A stretch of 43,706 bases of DNA from assembly GCF_000376785.1 (NCBI RefSeq), contig NZ_AQXX01000085.1, positions 1 through 43,706 on the forward strand, read 5' to 3'. Position 1 is the first letter of the stretch. The number at the start of each line of letters is the position of its first letter. Below the pieces are notes generated by a model, which did not search any database, was not told where the DNA came from, and saw only the letters and a program-made list of their open reading frames with translations. Origin of the DNA: Hahella ganghwensis DSM 17046. Its GTDB lineage: Bacteria > Pseudomonadota > Gammaproteobacteria > Pseudomonadales > Oleiphilaceae. Shown here in pieces: positions 19,971 to 32,203 of this stretch. The translations under genes were made by a program, and so were the position numbers.

Positions 19971-20147
19971 ATGTATATTTACCGATTGGTATTTTTGCTG
20001 ATACTGGGAGTTTACATATTTTCCCCGGTGATCATGGATTGGTGGATCGCGCCAGGCAGTGCCTGGTACCGCCCCTACATCATGTGGTTTCTGATCATCA
20101 TTCTTGCCTATTGGCTGGAACGTAAGCGAGGTCCGAATGAATTTTAG
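19971..20147 (+). CDS. cbrX: Small membrane protein CbrX-like
   Basis: An ATG opens a 58-residue frame: MYIYRLVFLLILGVYIFSPV, then a short loop with DWWIAPGSAWYRPY, and a second hydrophobic helix (IMWFLIIILAYWLE) ending in RKRGPNEF. Two transmembrane helices are predicted. The stop overlaps the cbrA start by 11 bases, so cbrA translation is probably coupled to it. A small open frame in the same position is known as cbrX in Pseudomonas; my assignment rests on position and character, not on alignment. Confidence 0.8.
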   Translation: MYIYRLVFLLILGVYIFSPVIMDWWIAPGSAWYRPYIMWFLIIILAYWLERKRGPNEF

Positions 20148-23097
20148 TGCCTGGCAACTGCTGGGTCTCGGCGGCCTCTACCTGTCCACTCTGTTCACAC
20201 TCGCATACCTCAGCGAGCGCGGCCTGATACCTCTGCGTTGGGTGAGACATCCTGCCGTTTATATTCTTTCTCTCGGTGTCTATGCCAGCGCCTGGGCCTT
20301 CTACGGTTCTGTCGGGCTGGCGTATGAATACGGTTTTGGCTTTCTTGCTTTCTATCTCGGTATCTGTGGAGCTTTCCTGCTGGCCCCAGTACTGCTAATG
20401 CCTATCCTGCGAGTAGCCAAATCCTATCAACTCAGTTCCATCGCCGACCTGTTTACTTTCCGTTATCGCAGCCAATGGGCGGGAACGCTCAGCACATTGT
20501 TCATGATCATCAGCTCCCTTTGCCTGATGGCCCTTCAGTTTCAAGCAGTCATGATGTCGATGAATGTGCTGACCGGAACAGATCACCACTTCTGGGTTGG
20601 CTCGGTGTTTTGCGCAATGGTGATTCTGTTTACGATCTTTTTTGGAGCTCGGGGACAGTCAAGAGTGGAACGCCATCCAAGCCTGATGGTGGGGATAGCA
20701 CTGGAAGGTCTGTTAAAAATTATCATCATCCTGGTTCTGGGAACTATCGTTGCGTACAAGGTATTCGGCGGCTTCGGTGAACTGAATCAATGGCTCGCGG
20801 ATAATGCCCAGCGTGTCAGCTCCCTGGACAGACACCTGGAAGATGGCCCCTGGCGGGCGCTATTGCTGATATTTTTTGCCTCCGCCCTGGTCATGCCACA
20901 CATGTTCCATATGATATTCACTGAGAACCTCAACTCCCAGGCACTCTTCAAAGCCAGTTGGGGGCTCCCGCTATATCTGTTACTGATCAGCATACCGGTT
21001 CCGCTTTTCATGTGGGCTGGCATCAAGATGTCAGTGCCGACAGAGCCAGACTACTTTATTCTCGGGTTGGGCGACCGGTTCGAAATGCCCTGGTTCAATG
21101 CTGTCGCATTTCTCGGGGGTCTCACAGCCGCCAGTGGTTTACTGATTGTGAGTTGTCTGGCCTTGGCCTCTATGGCACTGAACCACATTATCCTGCCCGT
21201 TTACCAGCCTCTGGCCAGACGCGATATCTACCGCTGGCTGACCCTGGTCAGACGCCTGCTAATCACGGTCATTCTGGGTAGCGGTTATCTGTTTGCCGTT
21301 TGGCTGGACGGGAAGTTATCCCTGTCTATCCTAGGGGTTCTCGCTTTTTCTGCCGGCTTGCAACTCCTACCCGGCGTTCTATGTGTCATTTACTGGCCTT
21401 TGGGCAATCGCATCGGCTTCATCTGGGGACTCGTCACAGGGTTCACCTTATGGCTGGTGACACTTGCCCTTCCACTAATACTGGAAATTGATATTCTGGC
21501 CTGGGGAATCTGGCCTACGGACTACCGGCTGAACAATAATGACTGGCATTACTATGTCATGATTTCTCTGACCGCCAACATTTGCGTCTTTGTCGGTCTA
21601 TCACTTTTCTTCAAGCTGACCACAGAAGAAGAACGCGCCGCGCAGGCCTGTTCCGTGGATACGTTAATGCGTCCCTCAAGACGCGAACTGATTGCCACAA
21701 GCTCAGAAGAGTTCAAAGACTTTCTATCGGTACCACTGGGACAAACCGCCGCAGACAGGGAGGTTAACCACGCCATTGCTCAGCTCCAGCTGCACGAGGT
21801 CGAGTTCCGGCCCTATGCACTCAGGCGTTTACGAGATCAGATTGAGGCCAACCTGTCAGGCTTACTCGGGCCAGCCATTGCCCAGGACATTGTCCAGCAA
21901 TATCTGCAATTCAAACCGGCCAGCAGTGTCACTCCCGCCCAGGACATCTACTTTGTTGAAACCAAGCTTGAAGATTACCACCATCGCCTTAGCGGTCTGG
22001 CAGGCGAACTGGACACCCTCAGGCGCTATCACCGGCAGACGCTTCAGAACCTTCCTATTGCCTCCTGCTCACTGGGCGTTGACCTGGAAGTTTTAATGTG
22101 GAATCAGGCCATGGAGCAAATAACCGGCATTTCAGCCCCCCAGGTCATCGGCTCTCACATCAGCTCAATCGATGCTCCCTGGGCGGAACTGCTATTCAGT
22201 TTTGCCAACGGTGAAGAACGCCACGTTTCCAAAAAGCGTATTGACCTTGAAGGCCGGCCACACTGGTTTAATCTGCACAAAGCCACCATAGACAGCGATG
22301 CTGCCGGCCAGGTGTTGATGATCGAAGATTACACTGAAACCCAGTTGTTGGAAGAAGAACTGGTTCACAGTGAACGCCTGGCCTCTGTCGGGCGACTTGC
22401 TGCCGGAGTTGCCCACGAAATCGGAAACCCTGTGACCGGTATTGCCTGCCTGGCCCAGAACCTCAGGCTGATGACCAAGAATGAGGAAGTGCTGCTTACA
22501 GCAGATCAGATACTCGACCAGACACAACGAGTCTCGAAAATACTACAGACCCTGATGCGGTTCAGCCGGTCAGGGAATTACAGCCAGCCATTGCAGCATA
22601 CACCAACACAACTCAAACGTTGCGTTGATGAAGCAATCCACTTACTCTCTCTGTCTGCGGCAGATCCCCAGGTGAGCTTTATAAATAACGTCAACTCTGA
22701 GATACAGGTCATGGGGGACGGACAAAGATTGGTGCAGGTGTTCGTCAACTTGCTGAGCAATGCCAGAGATGCCTCTCCTGCGGAAGGGGCTCATGTCTGG
22801 ATCAAGGCAAGCATTGAAGACTATACGACGCGAATCGAAGTGATCGATGAAGGCTCAGGCATTCCCGGAGATCAGCTCGATCATTTATTTGAACCGTTTT
22901 TCACCACCAAAGATCCTGATAAGGGGACAGGCCTGGGCCTGGCTTTGGTGTACAGTATTATAGAAGAGCACTATGGACACATTCGTGTTGAAAGCCCAGC
23001 TGACCCGGACACCGGGCGCGGAACTCGGGTTATTATGCAAGTACCGGGTGCCGCCATTGATAAATCGCCGCAGACTCAAGAACAGACGGAATCCTGA
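20137..23097 (+). CDS. cbrA: Sensor histidine kinase CbrA with SLC5 transporter-like domain
   Basis: Sensor of the CbrAB system that governs carbon/nitrogen balance and catabolite repression. Start ATG 20137 follows GAGG and overlaps cbrX; an upstream in-frame TTG is discarded. Residues 1-490 hold about 13 membrane helices like Na+/solute symporters of family SLC5. Next are a STAC-like linker, a PAS domain (about 625-740), the phosphoacceptor H760 in GVAHEIGNP, the N box LVQVFVNLLSNARDAS, and G boxes DEGSGIP and GTGLGLALV. The 986-residue length is typical of CbrA. cbrB starts 3 bases after its stop. Confidence 0.95.
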   Translation: MNFSAWQLLGLGGLYLSTLFTLAYLSERGLIPLRWVRHPAVYILSLGVYASAWAFYGSVGLAYEYGFGFLAFYLGICGAFLLAPVLLMPILRVAKSYQLSSIADLFTFRYRSQWAGTLSTLFMIISSLCLMALQFQAVMMSMNVLTGTDHHFWVGSVFCAMVILFTIFFGARGQSRVERHPSLMVGIALEGLLKIIIILVLGTIVAYKVFGGFGELNQWLADNAQRVSSLDRHLEDGPWRALLLIFFASALVMPHMFHMIFTENLNSQALFKASWGLPLYLLLISIPVPLFMWAGIKMSVPTEPDYFILGLGDRFEMPWFNAVAFLGGLTAASGLLIVSCLALASMALNHIILPVYQPLARRDIYRWLTLVRRLLITVILGSGYLFAVWLDGKLSLSILGVLAFSAGLQLLPGVLCVIYWPLGNRIGFIWGLVTGFTLWLVTLALPLILEIDILAWGIWPTDYRLNNNDWHYYVMISLTANICVFVGLSLFFKLTTEEERAAQACSVDTLMRPSRRELIATSSEEFKDFLSVPLGQTAADREVNHAIAQLQLHEVEFRPYALRRLRDQIEANLSGLLGPAIAQDIVQQYLQFKPASSVTPAQDIYFVETKLEDYHHRLSGLAGELDTLRRYHRQTLQNLPIASCSLGVDLEVLMWNQAMEQITGISAPQVIGSHISSIDAPWAELLFSFANGEERHVSKKRIDLEGRPHWFNLHKATIDSDAAGQVLMIEDYTETQLLEEELVHSERLASVGRLAAGVAHEIGNPVTGIACLAQNLRLMTKNEEVLLTADQILDQTQRVSKILQTLMRFSRSGNYSQPLQHTPTQLKRCVDEAIHLLSLSAADPQVSFINNVNSEIQVMGDGQRLVQVFVNLLSNARDASPAEGAHVWIKASIEDYTTRIEVIDEGSGIPGDQLDHLFEPFFTTKDPDKGTGLGLALVYSIIEEHYGHIRVESPADPDTGRGTRVIMQVPGAAIDKSPQTQEQTES

Positions 23098-23100
23098 TTT

Positions 23101-24489
23101 ATGGCTTTAATCTTAGTAGTTGAAGACGAAAGCATTATCCGCTCGGCGTTAAAACGCCTGTTGGAACACAATGGTCATCAGGTCCTGGAGGCAGAGTCCG
23201 TTGATGTTGCCATGGCCACGATAGCCGAAACAAAACCAGACATCATCGTGTCCGATTTAAGACTACCTGGAAAACCGGGCACCGAATTAATTACATTAAC
23301 CGACGTACCTGTTCTGATCATGACCAGTTACGCCAGTCTCCGGTCAGCTGTGGATTCAATGAAACTCGGCGCGGTTGATTACATTGCCAAACCTTTCGAC
23401 CATGAAGAAATGCTCTCATCCATCCAGACGATTCTGGACCGCACAACGGATGAGCCGGCAGTAGAAGCGCCCCCTACATCAGCAGGCTCTTCCCGGGAAG
23501 AACCTAAAAAAGTTGACCTCAGCCAGTTAATGTACGGCGAATGCTATGAGATGCAGAAACTTTTTGATCTCATCCGAAAAGTTGCCCCGACAGATACCAC
23601 CGTCTTAATACAGGGCGAGTCAGGCACAGGTAAAGAGCTGGCCGCACGGGCACTTCACACCCTGAGCCCAAGGCACTCTGCTCAACTGATCTGCGTCAAC
23701 TGCGCAGCGATACCGGAAACGTTAATCGAATCAGAGCTGTTCGGCCATGAGAAAGGTGCTTTTACCGGAGCCGTCGGCGCCCGCAGTGGACTGATCGAAG
23801 CCGCGGATAGTGGAACCCTGTTTCTCGATGAAATCGGCGAACTACCTCTGGAAGCCCAGGCCCGGTTACTGCGTGTACTTCAGGAAGGTGAAATACGTCG
23901 GGTAGGCTCAACCCAGTCCAAGCAGGTCGATATCCGGCTGGTGGCCGCCACTCACCGAAACCTGAAGGCCATGACGAAAACAGGTCAGTTTCGAGAAGAC
24001 CTTTATTACCGCCTCAATGTGATGCAACTTAAAATACCGCCTCTACGGGCGCGAGAAGAAGATGTTGTCGGCCTGGCGAAGATGCTGCTGAAAAAAATCG
24101 GTGATCGCATGGGCAAGGTCAGCCTTAAATTTGAGAAAGAAGCACTTTCCGCCATCAGACACTACGAATGGCCCGGAAATGTCCGGGAAATGGAAAATGC
24201 TGTGGAACGGGCCGTTATCCTCGCAGACAGCGATATCATTTCATCCGATCTTCTCGATATTGAAACAGAAGGAGACTTCGATATGCCGGAAGGCATGATG
24301 GGAGTGGAAAAAGGAGGTGATAAAGCCGCTGATCTGTCTCTGGAAGATTACTTCCAGCACTTTGTGCTCGAGAACCAGGACACCATGAGCGAAACCGAGC
24401 TAGCCAAGAAACTTGGTATCAGCCGTAAAAGCCTGTGGGAAAGACGTCAGCGCCTCGGTATACCCCGAACCAAGAAGAGCTCTAAATAA
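23101..24489 (+). CDS. cbrB: Sigma-54-dependent response regulator CbrB
   Basis: NtrC-type activator. The receiver domain has phosphoacceptor D52 (VSDLRLPG) and K96 (IAKPFD). The AAA+ domain shows Walker A GESGTGKE at 172-179, the sigma-54 contact loop GAFTGA at 219-224 and Walker B FLDEIG at 241-246. A Fis-type helix-turn-helix, [20 protein letters not shown], is at the C-terminus. The 462-residue length and position next to cbrA fix the identity. Its expected target, the crcZ-like promoter, lies 0.5 kb downstream. Confidence 0.95.
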
Positions 24490-24502
24490 CCCCTTCCACT
24501 CT

Positions 24503-24532
24503 GCCGGATGAACTCTGCGTCTTTCGTCCGGC
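24503..24532 (+). terminator. Weak stem-loop after cbrB
   Basis: GCCGGA and TCCGGC form a 6-bp stem with an 18-base loop, 14 bases after the cbrB stop. The downstream CCTCTATACT has only a modest pyrimidine content. Confidence 0.4.
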
Positions 24533-24604
24533 CCTCTATACTCCAACTTTTTGAACTTTATAGCCTCCCTCTCGATATTTCTTCGAAGCTTACCTCTATT
24601 TTCA

Positions 24605-24622
24605 GGTAACAGTTCGGTAACA
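24605..24622. promoter_or_regulatory. Distal pair of GGTAACA boxes
   Basis: Two direct GGTAACA copies start at 24605 and 24616, exactly 11 bp (one helical turn) apart. The second, within CGGTAACACTTTC, recurs as an exact 13-bp match at 24910. The core is the TGTTAC/GTAACA element reported for CbrB. This pair lies about 380 bp before the sigma-54 promoter, so it may be an extra enhancer. Confidence 0.6.
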
Positions 24623-24859
24623 CTTTCAAGTCATTTCTCCAACAAGATGACTCCCAGCCAGAAATCCTCCCCATACCCAAGAATGCACCAAATTGGTTAT
24701 TTCCCTACATCAATACCCATTTAGCTATTAGAAATAACAAAGGGATTAATAATTCCAATCAAATATCCATATTTTTTTCTTGCAGTACGTCAAACCTGTG
24801 CAATATTTAAACAAAACAAAAAGTAATTGAGCTGAAACATTCCAACTTACCTGCTCACT

Positions 24860-24917
24860 TGTTACCAGTTGTTACCCGTGGGAACAACTTCGCGCGACAA
24901 AGTGGGGCACGGTAACA
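24860..24917. promoter_or_regulatory. Putative CbrB enhancer (UAS) for the crcZ-like gene
   Basis: TGTTACC occurs at 24860-24866 and 24870-24876, followed by the inverse GGTAACA at 24911-24917. Boxes in opposite orientation flanking about 35 bp, 80-135 bp upstream of a sigma-54 promoter, fit a bacterial enhancer. The box sequence agrees with the TGTTAC-type CbrB site known in Pseudomonas. Binding is inferred. Confidence 0.7.
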
Positions 24918-24994
24918 CTTTCGTACGCAAAACTACTTATCACCCTTTATTAAAAACACTTAACTATTTGTTTATAAAAGCCTTTTAATAAAGC

Positions 24995-25010
24995 TGGCAC
25001 AGCCGATGCT
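24995..25010 (+). promoter_or_regulatory. Sigma-54 promoter of the crcZ-like RNA
   Basis: TGGCACAGCCGATGCT has the -24 GG and -12 GC elements with exactly 10 bases between them, and a perfect TGGCAC -24 box. Transcription should begin at about 25020-25022. It lies directly upstream of the A-rich RNA and downstream of the GTAACA boxes. Confidence 0.85.
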
Positions 25011-25020
25011 ATTTACCAAT

Positions 25021-25400
25021 CACAAAATAAAAATAAGAGCCCCTTAAACTGCACAAATAAAAATAAAAAAGCAGAGCAAACAACAAAAACAACCCAGAAC
25101 AAAAACAAGAATACGGGTGGCGAACTGATTGTTTTGGATGCCAGGCTTTTTAGCGGTATCAAAGGTATGGGTAGCGGTCTAGAAGAACAACAAACGCGAA
25201 TGCGAGAAACGCTAGACATTCAACTCTTCCCTCACACCTATTACTGCTCGACGTATTCAAAGCGTTCCGTTTGCATACAGAATTCGAAGGCTCTAATTGT
25301 GGAGCGAAATTTATGGGACTGGGACGAAACAAAAACAAAAAATCGTCTGACCTTCTTCTCAGTGGGGATGGATATCCATCCCCATAGTTCTCTTCTCCTC
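25021..25400 (+). ncRNA. crcZ: CrcZ-like regulatory RNA (Hfq/Crc decoy)
   Basis: Between cbrB and pcnB, the place occupied by crcZ in Pseudomonas. From the predicted start near 25021 the RNA carries six A-rich motifs of the catabolite-activity type: 25024-25036, 25055-25070, 25078-25092, 25098-25111, 25183-25194 and 25327-25342 (for example AAACAACAAAAACAA). Several sit in loops, closed by CTGC/GCAG (25049/25071) and GACGA/TCGTC (25323/25343). Such RNAs titrate Hfq with Crc and relieve carbon catabolite repression. The 3' end is inferred from the palindrome at 25363-25384. Roughly 0.38 kb, close to the ~0.4 kb of Pseudomonas CrcZ. No alignment was run. Confidence 0.85.
25363..25384 (+). terminator. 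Perfect 22-bp palindrome at the 3' end of the crcZ-like RNA
   Basis: TGGGGATGGAT and its exact inverse complement abut. As RNA it would fold as a GC-rich stem with a tiny loop, followed by ATAGTTCTCTTCTCC, which is U/C-rich. It most likely ends the RNA; a protein site is an alternative. Confidence 0.65.
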
Positions 25401-25559
25401 TGACTCACCATTTACACCTTCCTGAACTGTTATTGCCTCAACATAACTTAACTAACTGTTCCCTATCGAAGAATATCTATTGCAAGCTGGTCGCAAATTG
25501 GGCCACAACAGGGTAAACTCCCCGCCTTCTATAAGCAGGTGTCAAGATACCCTTTTGCA

Positions 25560-26909
25560 ATGTTAAAAAAGTTTATTGGCATGATTAGGCCGGGGACAAA
25601 ATCCTCCAAGCGCTTTTCTCTGAGCATTATCCCCAGAGAACAACACAGCGTTTCGCGCAAACAAATCAGCCCAAATGCATTAAAAGTGCTCTACCGTCTC
25701 AACAGTGCAGGATACGAAGCTTTTCTGGTAGGCGGCGGTGTCCGTGATCTGTTACTGGGGGAACATCCCAAAGATTTTGACATTGCCACCAATGCCACAC
25801 CGGAACAGGTACGCGCCCAATTCAACAACTGTCGCCTGATAGGCAAGCGGTTTCGCCTTGCCCATGTCAGATTTGGCCGGGAAATCATTGAAGTAGCCAC
25901 CTTTCGGGCCAGTCATCAAAAAGCTGAAGACGATACTCATCGGGCTGCAACCAGCGATTCCGGGCAGATCCTCAGGGATAATGTGTACGGCAATCAGGAA
26001 GAAGATGCCCTACGCCGCGATTTTACAGTCAACGCGCTTTACTATGGCGTCAAAGACTTTGGTATCTACGATTACGCCAATGGAATGGAAGACCTGCGCA
26101 ACCGTTTACTGCGCCTGATAGGCGATCCAGCCACCCGATATCGTGAAGACCCGGTAAGAATGCTGCGAGCCGCCAGATTTGCGGCTAAGCTGGACTTTAC
26201 AATCGAGGAAAAAACAGCTGCGCCAATTTCCGAGCTTGGCCCACTCCTGCTGAACATTCCGTCAGCCCGTCTATTTGAAGAAGTATTAAAACTATTTCTC
26301 TCTGGAAAGGCAGAGGCGACCTTTAACATTCTGAGAGAACTGAATCTGTTCAAGTTTCTGTTCCCTTCCACCGATCAACTAATCAATGATGGCCATCCGC
26401 ACGCACAAAAGCTGGTCGAGCAGGCTCTTATTAACACCGACAAGCGGGTTAATGCCGATAAGCCAGTAACGCCTGCATTTCTCTATGCAGCCTTGTTATG
26501 GCCTGCAACTCAGCTGGAATTTCAGCGTTGTCTGGATGACGGCATTCCACCGATACCTGCCATGCACAAAGCCAGTCAAAAGGTCATTGATGCGCAGGTT
26601 AAACATACGGCATTACCCAAGCGTTTCAGCCAGCCCATGAAAGAAATCTGGGAATTACAGCTGAGACTGCCGCGCCGCAGAGGTAAAAGCGCCCAAGCGA
26701 TAGTGGAGCATCCACGATTCCGCGCATCCTATGACTTCGTCCTTCTGCGGGAAGCCAGCGGCGAAGATCTGCAAGGCTTGGGCAAATGGTGGACCGATTT
26801 CCAGGAAGGCGATGCAAACACTCGCCAGAAACTACAACAGGGGCAGGGACAAGGTGAAGGCAAGCGTCGCCCAAGACGCCGTCGTCGCCACCATAACAAA
26901 CCCAGCTGA
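25560..26909 (+). CDS. pcnB: Poly(A) polymerase I
   Basis: Adds 3' poly(A) tails that promote RNA decay. ATG 25560 gives the MLKKFIG start seen in Pseudomonas PcnB; an earlier in-frame GTG is less likely. The nucleotidyltransferase motif is LVGGGVRDLLLGEHPKDFDI with the DxD metal pair, followed by GKRFRLAHVRFGREIIEVAT and RRDFTVNAL. The RNA-binding region contains DPVRMLRAARFAAKLDF. The tail is rich in Gln, Gly and Arg (RRPRRRRRHHN). At 449 residues it fits the family. CCA-adding enzyme is excluded by the basic C-terminus and context with folK. Confidence 0.95.
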   Translation: MLKKFIGMIRPGTKSSKRFSLSIIPREQHSVSRKQISPNALKVLYRLNSAGYEAFLVGGGVRDLLLGEHPKDFDIATNATPEQVRAQFNNCRLIGKRFRLAHVRFGREIIEVATFRASHQKAEDDTHRAATSDSGQILRDNVYGNQEEDALRRDFTVNALYYGVKDFGIYDYANGMEDLRNRLLRLIGDPATRYREDPVRMLRAARFAAKLDFTIEEKTAAPISELGPLLLNIPSARLFEEVLKLFLSGKAEATFNILRELNLFKFLFPSTDQLINDGHPHAQKLVEQALINTDKRVNADKPVTPAFLYAALLWPATQLEFQRCLDDGIPPIPAMHKASQKVIDAQVKHTALPKRFSQPMKEIWELQLRLPRRRGKSAQAIVEHPRFRASYDFVLLREASGEDLQGLGKWWTDFQEGDANTRQKLQQGQGQGEGKRRPRRRRRHHNKPS

Positions 26910-26941
26910 CCGCCCCTTATAATAACTATTTTGGAATGTGC

Positions 26942-27454
26942 ATGAGCGTTAATGTTCCCCATCAGTCTGGGCCCGTGGTCGATTGCTATATAGGCATGGG
27001 CAGCAACCAGAACCAACCGGAACTGCAGTTAAATCAGGCAATTGAGGCAATCAGGCAACACCCCGCCATGGCCCTGCAGGCCGTTTCCCGTCTATACAGT
27101 ACCGTCCCTTTGGGCGGCTTGGACCAACCTCAGTATGTTAACGGGGTCGCCCACATCAGGACGCAACTGAAGGCCGAATCACTCCTTGATGAGCTGCAAA
27201 CTATCGAAACCCAGCAGGGAAGAGAACGAAACGGCCAACGCTGGAGCTCCCGAACTCTGGACCTGGATTTGCTGCTCTACGGTACGGAAGTCATTCGCAG
27301 CCAAAGGCTAGTCGTCCCCCATTACGCCCTGCATGAACGTAACTTTGTGGTGTTTCCGTTACTCGAACTCTGCCCGGACTGTCACATCCCGGGCCTTGGT
27401 TCCCTGGCGGAAATAAGCGATACGCTGACCCAGGAAGGTATGACACCACTGTAA
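26942..27454 (+). CDS. folK: 6-hydroxymethyl-7,8-dihydropterin pyrophosphokinase (first copy)
   Basis: Transfers pyrophosphate from ATP to the pterin, leading to folate. Signatures: CYIGMGSNQNQPELQLNQAI at the N-terminus and RWSSRTLDLDLLLYG, with the two Mg-binding Asp residues. A second ATG at 26936 is possible; GGA sits well placed for 26942. It follows pcnB by about 30 bases and precedes panB, the Pseudomonas order pcnB-folK-panB-panC. A second, divergent HPPK homologue lies at 31008-31508. Confidence 0.95.
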   Translation: MSVNVPHQSGPVVDCYIGMGSNQNQPELQLNQAIEAIRQHPAMALQAVSRLYSTVPLGGLDQPQYVNGVAHIRTQLKAESLLDELQTIETQQGRERNGQRWSSRTLDLDLLLYGTEVIRSQRLVVPHYALHERNFVVFPLLELCPDCHIPGLGSLAEISDTLTQEGMTPL

Positions 27455-31007: not shown

Positions 31008-31508
31008 CTACCAGCATTGTCCTCTCCATTGAAAGGTAACGGGCTCTAAAAACTTGTCACCGCTAAATTCATCCCACAATACCTGATAGCTCACCTTCAA
31101 CTCCGGATGAACCCCTTCTGGCGACAAATCTGCCAATGGCTTTAACACATATGCATGCTTGACGATCTCATCCCTGGGCAACTCAACACCATCGATAATT
31201 CCCACTTTATCGTCGTAGGTCAGAATATCGATATCGAGTGTACGGCCTGACCATTTACTTTCCTTTCCTGTTCTTCCTGTACTGGCTTCAATCCCCTTGA
31301 GAGCCTGCTGCAACTGCCCCACATCCAATTGGGTTTCAAAGGAGGCCACAAGATTATAGAAATCGTCACCATCAAAACCTACTGCCCGGCATCGATAGAC
31401 CGGTGATAACCGCAGCCCATCAAACTCAGAACTCAAAGACTCAAATGCCGCTAACAAGTTCTTTTGCGGGTCAATATTACTTCCGATGCCGACCAACACC
31501 TTGCTCAC
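31008..31508 (-). CDS. folK: HPPK-family pyrophosphokinase (second folK)
   Basis: A second HPPK, 166 residues, with VLVGIGSNIDPQKNLLAAF, the substrate-site loop and WSGRTLDIDILTYDD containing the Mg-binding Asp pair, so it should be active. It starts at GTG 31508, just after the folB stop, with AGGAG upstream. It is more divergent from the first copy (26942-27454) than a recent duplicate would be. Coupling with folB (the preceding folate step) suggests a dedicated folB-folK unit. Whether both copies are used is unknown. Confidence 0.9.
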   Translation of the reverse strand: MSKVLVGIGSNIDPQKNLLAAFESLSSEFDGLRLSPVYRCRAVGFDGDDFYNLVASFETQLDVGQLQQALKGIEASTGRTGKESKWSGRTLDIDILTYDDKVGIIDGVELPRDEIVKHAYVLKPLADLSPEGVHPELKVSYQVLWDEFSGDKFLEPVTFQWRGQCW

Positions 31509-31511
31509 GTC

Positions 31512-31883
31512 TCAATAACTCCTCTCGATTTTAACTCCCACCGATGCAGCCTCCGCCACAGCACTGGGTTTTCGGATATGTAGACGCATCCAGGCGATAC
31601 CAAATTCCTGATGTAATAACTCTGCCATCTTTTCGAGCAATACTTCCAGCAGCTGGTACTGAGTTTCTGCCGCAAAGTCGCGCAATCTCTGACAGACTGC
31701 AGCATAATTAAGCGTATCGGCTAAATCATCGGATTGGGCCGCCGCTTTGATATCCCACTCAAGTTCCAGATCAAGAAATAGCCTCTGGGGATAGGTTTTC
31801 TCAAAATGATACACCCCAATCACGGTATCTATCTGGAGGGATTCGATAGTAATTTTATCCGGGGCAAGCCCATTGTCAGGCAT
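31512..31883 (-). CDS. folB: Dihydroneopterin aldolase
   Basis: Converts dihydroneopterin to 6-hydroxymethyl-dihydropterin. The ATG at 31883 gives 123 residues, matching E. coli FolB; a GTG at 31913 with GGGGAGAG upstream is an alternative. Motifs: DTVIGVYHFEKTYPQRLFLDLE, with the active-site Glu; TLNYAAVCQRL with the Tyr; and the C-terminal lysine region IRKPSAVAEAASVGVKIER. It is coupled with the second folK. Confidence 0.93.
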   Translation of the reverse strand: MPDNGLAPDKITIESLQIDTVIGVYHFEKTYPQRLFLDLELEWDIKAAAQSDDLADTLNYAAVCQRLRDFAAETQYQLLEVLLEKMAELLHQEFGIAWMRLHIRKPSAVAEAASVGVKIERSY

Positions 31884-32203
31884 CTGATTCGACTTGTTCA
31901 CAACCTTCTTCACCTTTATCTCTCCCCTGGCCTTCCAGACAGCTAGAGAACTGATTGAGTCCGGCAAGACACCAGGGAGTTATCAGGGTCTCCTTATAGG
32001 AGGACGGCACCCGACTGTCAAACCTTTTGTCGGTAATGGCCAATAATCCAACCATCTCTCAGCTTTCCAGGCAAGGTTAAAGCGTCTGCCATTTTCCTTA
32101 CACTGAACAGGTCTCAGCTTTCATCGCTGGCATTCCTTTTCGCATAAAGGCAGACTTAGACATATTTCAACCAGTTACCGACTTTTCACCAGACTCACAA
32201 CTC

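Follow-up and report, generated by a model that had tools for sequence, protein, structure and literature searches.

CrcZ of PAO1 is an RNA of 407 nt with six (ARN)n≥4 repeats that binds the distal face of Hfq, and in gel shifts its first 151 nt, a part with three A-rich stretches, yielded three bands retarded by Hfq (PMC4063720, cited from excerpts). Extra copies of the CrcZ type, CrcY and CrcX, occur in Pseudomonas (PMC8871633, excerpts). Excerpts of the same review call CbrAB unique to the Pseudomonadaceae and describe cbrA-cbrB-crcZ only in Pseudomonas and Azotobacter, and CbrAB is likewise said to be exclusive to the Pseudomonadaceae in an excerpt of PMC6296734, according to which subsites of the TGTTAC/GTAACA types act in CbrB binding in P. 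putida. In the open-access literature no report was found on CbrB in Hahella, on CrcZ in Marinobacter or the Oceanospirillales, or on Crc catabolite repression in Marinobacter, and mention elsewhere is possible. Transcripts of cbr in a marine community are mentioned in an excerpt of a metatranscriptome study.

The window, i.e. the whole stretch of DNA analysed here (43,706 nucleotides), belongs to Hahella ganghwensis DSM 17046, whose genome of 6.56 Mb is assigned by NCBI to the Oceanospirillales, Hahellaceae. The encoded CbrA is 94% identical to CbrA of Hahella sp. CCB-MM4, and CbrB is nearest on the tree to that of the same strain (92%). An earlier note, made from the letters of this DNA alone, had described a CrcZ-type RNA between cbrB and pcnB and suspected that the genome might not be Pseudomonas; it is indeed of Hahella type, and both flanking genes were found. 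The gene order is gluQ, cbrA, cbrB, gap, pcnB, folK, and 1070 bases separate the stop of cbrB (24489) from the ATG of pcnB (25560). The features of the region, all on the forward strand, are as follows.

20104 to 23097, +: cbrA, sensor kinase, CbrA orthologue (open reading frame, kinase-domain family matches, 56 relatives with a cbrB neighbour)
23101 to 24489, +: cbrB, sigma-54-dependent response regulator, presumed activator (open reading frame, CbrB tree)
24860 to 24917, +: putative CbrB-type subsites (subsite sequences like those of P. putida)
24995 to 25010, +: sigma-54 promoter TGGCACAGCCGATGCT, GG-N10-GC (pattern scan)
25021 to 25394, +: CrcZ-like RNA gene (approximate limits: start predicted by the promoter, end by hairpin and tail)
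25026 to 25040, +: (ARN)n run 1 (triplet-run scan, as for runs 2 to 6)
25056 to 25070, +: (ARN)n run 2
25079 to 25093, +: (ARN)n run 3
25098 to 25112, +: (ARN)n run 4
25120 to 25141, +: core helix, 5' strand (RNAalifold on the ten-sequence alignment A1)
25183 to 25194, +: (ARN)n run 5
25253 to 25274, +: core helix, 3' strand, pairing with 25120 to 25141
25328 to 25342, +: (ARN)n run 6
25362 to 25385, +: terminator-like hairpin of 10 bp, holding the perfect palindrome GGGGATGGATATCCATCCCC at 25364 to 25383
25560 to 26909, +: pcnB, downstream neighbour on the same strand (ATG at 25560; TIGR01942 above its cut-off)

The kinase end of the cbrA product alone was matched to families here; its N-terminal part is presumably of the SLC5 type. 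CbrB matches NtrC-family models, none of them above its cut-off, and is 63.8% identical to the CbrB adjoining the CrcZ of locus L002. In searches with pcnB the query protein started two codons 3' of the ATG at 25560. Viral contigs searched with CbrA gave no relative. The window also holds two folK paralogues, at 26936-27454 and 31008-31508, the second of which adjoins a short ORF (31512-31967) that is folB-like by its translation.

The sigma-54 promoter lies just 5' of the motif stretch, as the earlier note had said, and from its position the RNA is predicted to start at about 25021. Upstream of it, TGTTAC occurs at 24860 and 24870, GGAACA at 24881 and GTAACA at 24912; GGAACA has one mismatch to GTAACA and the other three subsites are exact. 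At 84-136 bases upstream of the -24 GG, these are putative CbrB subsites of the CrcZ type (forward TGTTAC, reverse GTAACA). A sigma-70-like promoter was sought in 24490-25600 and not found.

Within 25021-25400 the motif AA.AA.AA occurs six times (shuffle mean 1.5; six reached in 1 of 2000 dinucleotide shuffles), and every copy consists of four or more A-R-N triplets in a row. The six runs of (A-R-N)n≥4 compare with a shuffle mean of 0.75 and are reached in 0 of 2000 dinucleotide shuffles, and other 380-nt stretches of the window, on both strands, have at most two. The earlier count of six A-rich motifs thus stands. Strict AAYAAYAA has two copies only in 25021-25400, and the same note had considered the motifs unlike the classic form; this is not borne out, since runs of the ACAAAAACAA type are present in the Rfam CrcZ consensus too, which has the same ACAAaAACAA form. 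In the predicted fold (MFE -91.9 kcal/mol, z -3.24; 1 of 100 shuffles folds equally well) short stems close loops that hold some of the motifs, as had been proposed, and the strong palindrome described at the end of the stretch is that at 25364-25383. A terminator scan gave one such site against a shuffle average of 1.0, which proves nothing alone; the end hairpin is at the same place in all ten aligned sequences (the window and nine relatives). Local GC is 0.44-0.45, compared with 0.51-0.53 in the adjoining kilobases. A coding gene was considered and rejected: the longest plus-strand ORF has 89 aa from a TTG, and one-base gaps run across it in the alignment.

RNAalifold on A1 gives a long-range core helix together with the terminal hairpin. 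In a larger alignment, A4, of 23 sequences, 13 of them from a family in the same order that was taken as Pseudomonadaceae from its strong RF01675 matches (f3; the 13 were picked among 19 pattern-found cores in 30 f3 loci), 84.5% of cells pair in the core helix, versus at most 51.1% when the strands are slid by 1-3 columns. Covariation is 0.126 and the column-shuffle mean 0.125, not above shuffles, so it is mainly sequence conservation that speaks for the helix.

A covariance search with the Rfam CrcZ model, which the earlier note had proposed, gave a full-length match: positions 1-398 of RF01675 align with 25057-25416 at a score of 48.5 bits (E 2.4e-11). Because the gathering cut-off of this family stands at 95, the Hahella element would not be listed by Rfam; at the gathering threshold the window yields tRNA only, and the CrcZ match appears in e-value mode. 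It is the sole RF01675 match at E ≤ 0.001 in the whole genome, and a core model run over the same genome found no further copies. A second, very weak match (contig C137, E 0.008) has no promoter with a motif cluster and was taken as chance, as were weak RF01675 matches at L167, L173 and L174. Of the 39 f3 genomes, 37 match RF01675 at E ≤ 0.001 and 33 score above the cut-off; since the other six are below it too, 95 is read as a listing threshold. The claim made here is accordingly one of orthology to CrcZ, as judged from sequence, not of membership of RF01675 as curated.

In a set of 38 genomes (34 of them reached via CbrA loci) 17 match RF01675 at E ≤ 0.01 and none passes the cut-off; among 14 control genomes, one (Bacillus subtilis) matched at E ≤ 0.01 and none at E ≤ 0.001. 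A strict class-wide scan found matches in 6 of 369 genomes, namely the Hahella genome itself, a strong one in G162 and four that are short or weak (20.7-29.7 bits). In the reciprocal direction, a core model (R1) built from ten sequences outside f3 was searched over 78 sources. It falls inside the CrcZ match in 26 of 30 f3 loci (L002, L101-L129), weakly (E 1e-4 to 0.83), with E ≤ 0.05 in 15 of the 30, and it also matches, on the right strand, five gaps of Oceanospirillum, Oleispira and kin (L022, L033, L036, L037, L041). An opposite-strand match in the L024 gap (E 4e-4) outranks most of the f3 matches, so the E-values of R1 are rough, and the reciprocal test is positive but weak. The E-value of an nhmmer iteration for L002 was left unused because its one Pseudomonadaceae-like row may have entered its own model.

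The distribution of the arrangement was followed from CbrA, whose search gave 56 named loci, all with a cbrB match, or 57 cbrAB loci with the window. A unit was defined as a sigma-54-like site with four or more AA.AA.AA in the next 400 nt, with thresholds set after a first look. The interval counted ran from cbrB to pcnB or, where pcnB was not found, covered the first 1500 bases after cbrB. Units are present in 40 of the 57 loci. After cbrB, 60 of 76 sigma-54-like sites pass as units, a count for which 59 is fairer because the L036 unit at 650 overlaps a further unit and is without a subsite. Of the 190 sigma-54-like sites located elsewhere in the same 885,513 bases, none carries the motif cluster. 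GTTAC/GTAAC within 250 nt upstream averages 4.58 at the 60 units versus 0.27 at 187 control sites. Tandems of two or three units occur in 14 of the 40 loci, all from Thalassolituus, Oleispira and kin, and three in a row are found in the cbrB-pcnB gaps of L026, L028, L030, L059 and L061 (Thalassolituus and kin). The suggestion in the earlier note that the CbrAB-CrcZ circuit is wider than usually shown gains support from these relatives and from the non-Pseudomonas host itself.

The 17 loci without a unit comprise five cut by a contig end (L018, L029, L057, L060, L068, the last with 876 visible bases without a motif), nine of Sedimenticola and kin, and three of endozoicomonad type (L021, L034, L038). 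The genomes of these last three carry a unit elsewhere. Relocated units, away from cbrB, were found at L168, L169, L170 and L171 in Kistimonas, Endozoicomonas and a related MAG; Kistimonas and Endozoicomonas have two copies each, the second with a degenerate -12 element. On reading, L170 and the second L168 copy show subsites, ARN runs and core; they were missed because the -12 element departs from GC, so the unit filter undercounts. In six Sedimenticola loci (L047, L048, L049, L051, L052, L067) a CGGCAC...CGCA sigma-54-like site without an ARN cluster lies 107-130 bases after cbrB, and may belong to a different CbrB target there. On the CbrB tree (63 rows, 5 of 68 candidates having been dropped as too short or unmatched; f3 rows scored as present from their RF01675 matches) unit presence needs one change when relocated units are counted as present and four cut rows are left out; with 21 of 60 forks poorly supported, this tree cannot tell gain from loss.

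Parts of the arrangement also occur uncoupled. In G272, of the same order, the unit lies between gluQ and pcnB, where cbrAB would stand (locus L183, match at 1501); this genome has Crc, and a full-length CbrA match sought in it was not found. In G365 cbrAB, unit and Crc are all present. Tamilnaduibacter has kept the unit, and its pcnB match starts 4.6 kb behind cbrB.

The earlier note had set the presence of crc and hfq as a test of its reading, and both were found in the genome along with rpoN. Hfq matches PAO1 Hfq at E 3e-39 and keeps the distal ARN-site residues L26, I30, L32, Q33, Q52 and T61, with Y25 replaced by F25. The Crc orthologue (L013:1477-2250) has P. aeruginosa Crc as its best PDB match (4jg3, E 4.7e-72), and its gene is flanked by pyrE and rph, both named from their translations. 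Its QE has become QD and its GDxN has become GNLQ, so that the catalytic Glu and Asp of this EEP-family protein are lost. NCBIfam would name this protein exonuclease III, a likely reason for Crc being overlooked. Both residues are absent in 30 of the 31 aligned rows, the exception being G007, which keeps both and has cbrAB with no unit. Of the RNA contacts of PAO1 Crc, which include K135, R138, K139, R140 and R141 (PMC6422490, excerpts), these five are kept in the Hahella protein, and K155, M156 and R196 are changed to V, T and K. The PAO1 dimer-interface residues E142, R229, R230 and F231 are Q, K, G and S here and thus not conserved. In PAO1 Crc the exchange E193R abolishes repression and a further R230E restores it (PMC6422490, excerpts); the Hahella protein has R193 and G230 in place of E193 and R230.

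Crc and unit were tallied in the 34 genomes reached through loci (L025 left out). A Crc orthologue is present in 27 of them, in two pieces in G377 and with an internal stop in G387, and all 27 carry the unit; the catalytic residues were read in the rows of 26 of these, and in the 27th via its first piece. Seven genomes are without a Crc orthologue, four with the unit (L040, L050, L062, L066) and three without it (L047, L048, L056). Fisher's test on this association gives p 0.006, kinship being ignored. The four genomes with unit and no Crc orthologue are all MAGs and may be incomplete; their best Crc-like matches have 27-29% identity to Cellvibrionaceae Crc, and that of L050 keeps the catalytic residues. 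Candidate targets in the Hahella genome were scanned at the starts of 311 predicted genes (20 stretches of 20 kb and the window; starts guessed by a simple script). The motif occurs at -35 to +12 in 5 of the 311, a weak signal, with 4 forward versus 1 reverse in the 50 bases before starts. Two of the five genes are acyl-CoA dehydrogenase-like, one encodes a hydroxymethylglutaryl-CoA lyase, one is carotenoid-isomerase/phytoene-desaturase-like and one is without a match, which is suggestive of catabolic targets and no proof of them.

The stretch has a sigma-54 promoter preceded by subsites, six ARN runs, a conserved core, an end hairpin and sequence homology to CrcZ; the genome holds hfq, crc and rpoN, and relatives show the same arrangement. 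Very probably the stretch encodes an orthologue of CrcZ, a decoy for Hfq/Crc that is controlled by CbrB and sigma-54. The CrcZ-type decoy reading of the earlier note is thus supported by the RF01675 match (E 2.4e-11) together with hfq, rpoN and the Crc orthologue. Activation by CbrB, binding of Hfq and relief of repression are carried over from Pseudomonas by analogy. When good carbon sources run out, CbrA would activate CbrB, which would bind the TGTTAC/GTAACA subsites and drive sigma-54 transcription from the promoter at 24995-25010. The resulting RNA of about 370 nt would present its six A-R-N runs to the distal face of Hfq, which would bind them, and could titrate Hfq, together with the former nuclease Crc as its partner, off A-rich sites at the starts of catabolic mRNAs. 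These mRNAs, once freed from Hfq, would then be translated.

The A-rich stretch might instead be the 5' leader of pcnB, a cis-acting, Hfq-controlled UTR running into that gene with no free decoy RNA. It is on the same strand as pcnB, about 175 bases separate the hairpin from the pcnB start, and 24490-25600 offers no sigma-70-like promoter. However, the hairpin closes the conserved stretch in 10 of 10 aligned sequences, the unit persists in Tamilnaduibacter where the pcnB match is 4.6 kb from cbrB, endozoicomonad-type units stand away from both cbrB and pcnB, and two or three tandem units occur in 14 of 40 loci, all of which makes a leader very unlikely. Chance A-richness in a low-GC intergenic region near an unrelated sigma-54 site would fit the drop in GC from 0.51-0.53 to 0.44-0.45, and yet it is hardly credible given ARN runs that no shuffle in 2000 equals, the absence of the cluster at all 190 control sites and the sequence homology to CrcZ.

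Somewhat less improbable, though still unlikely, is an RNA that is driven by CbrB/sigma-54 and titrates Hfq only, not for carbon repression and with Crc uninvolved. Such an RNA would suit the four of seven genomes that have the unit and no Crc orthologue (L040, L050, L062, L066), and PAO1 Crc is reported to bind no RNA by itself (PMC3662782). Against this, the Hahella Crc keeps K135, R138, K139, R140 and R141, the unit is present in 27 of 27 Crc-bearing genomes reached through loci, and all four exceptions are MAGs, possibly incomplete. An Hfq/Crc decoy orthologous to CrcZ is therefore the preferred reading.

The sequences described here contradict the view that CbrAB-CrcZ is restricted to the Pseudomonadaceae, and the circuit is probably much older than usually stated. 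It seems likely that CbrAB-CrcZ-Hfq/Crc predates the split of Pseudomonadaceae, Hahellaceae, Marinobacteraceae, Oceanospirillaceae, Endozoicomonadaceae and Cellvibrionaceae, with later tandem duplication (to at most three units), relocation, and retention without cbrA at the locus (G272) or without Crc (four MAGs); the Hfq decoy would be the constant part. Marinobacter, Thalassolituus and Oleispira are oil degraders and Endozoicomonas are animal symbionts. If the reading is true, the main carbon-repression switch of Pseudomonas would be common to many marine heterotrophs, including such oil degraders and symbionts, for which it is not described in the open-access papers searched. Tandem units, loci without CbrA and genomes without Crc are natural variants that could allow the roles of Crc, CbrAB and decoy dose to be compared, and the sequences found here can feed a broader Rfam CrcZ model. 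The kind of RNA is ordinary; what is notable is its distribution, wider and older than stated in the open-access papers searched, and the variants that separate the parts of the circuit.

Among known systems, CsrB and RsmZ bind CsrA/RsmA via GGA motifs, whereas the target of a CrcZ-type RNA would be Hfq via ARN runs. The likeness to these RNAs is that a protein-binding motif occurs many times over and serves to titrate a global repressor of translation (PMC4063720, excerpts). CrcY and CrcX are the same kind of RNA, present in more than one copy in some genomes; the Hahella genome has one copy, and its relatives have tandem (14 of 40 loci) or relocated copies. The nearest likeness is to CrcZ itself (RF01675; Pseudomonas, Azotobacter), which the Hahella element resembles in its position after cbrB, sigma-54 promoter, TGTTAC/GTAACA subsites, length of about 0.4 kb, end hairpin and conserved core AACUGAUUnUUUUGG ... 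CAAAGnnnUCCGUUUGC; the two are homologous from end to end, and the Hahella element has six (ARN)n≥4 runs, the same number as in PAO1. It differs from CrcZ in its score of 48.5 bits against a cut-off of 95, in the diverged apical part of the core and in its host, which stands outside the Pseudomonadaceae, where reviews end the range of CrcZ (excerpts of PMC8871633).
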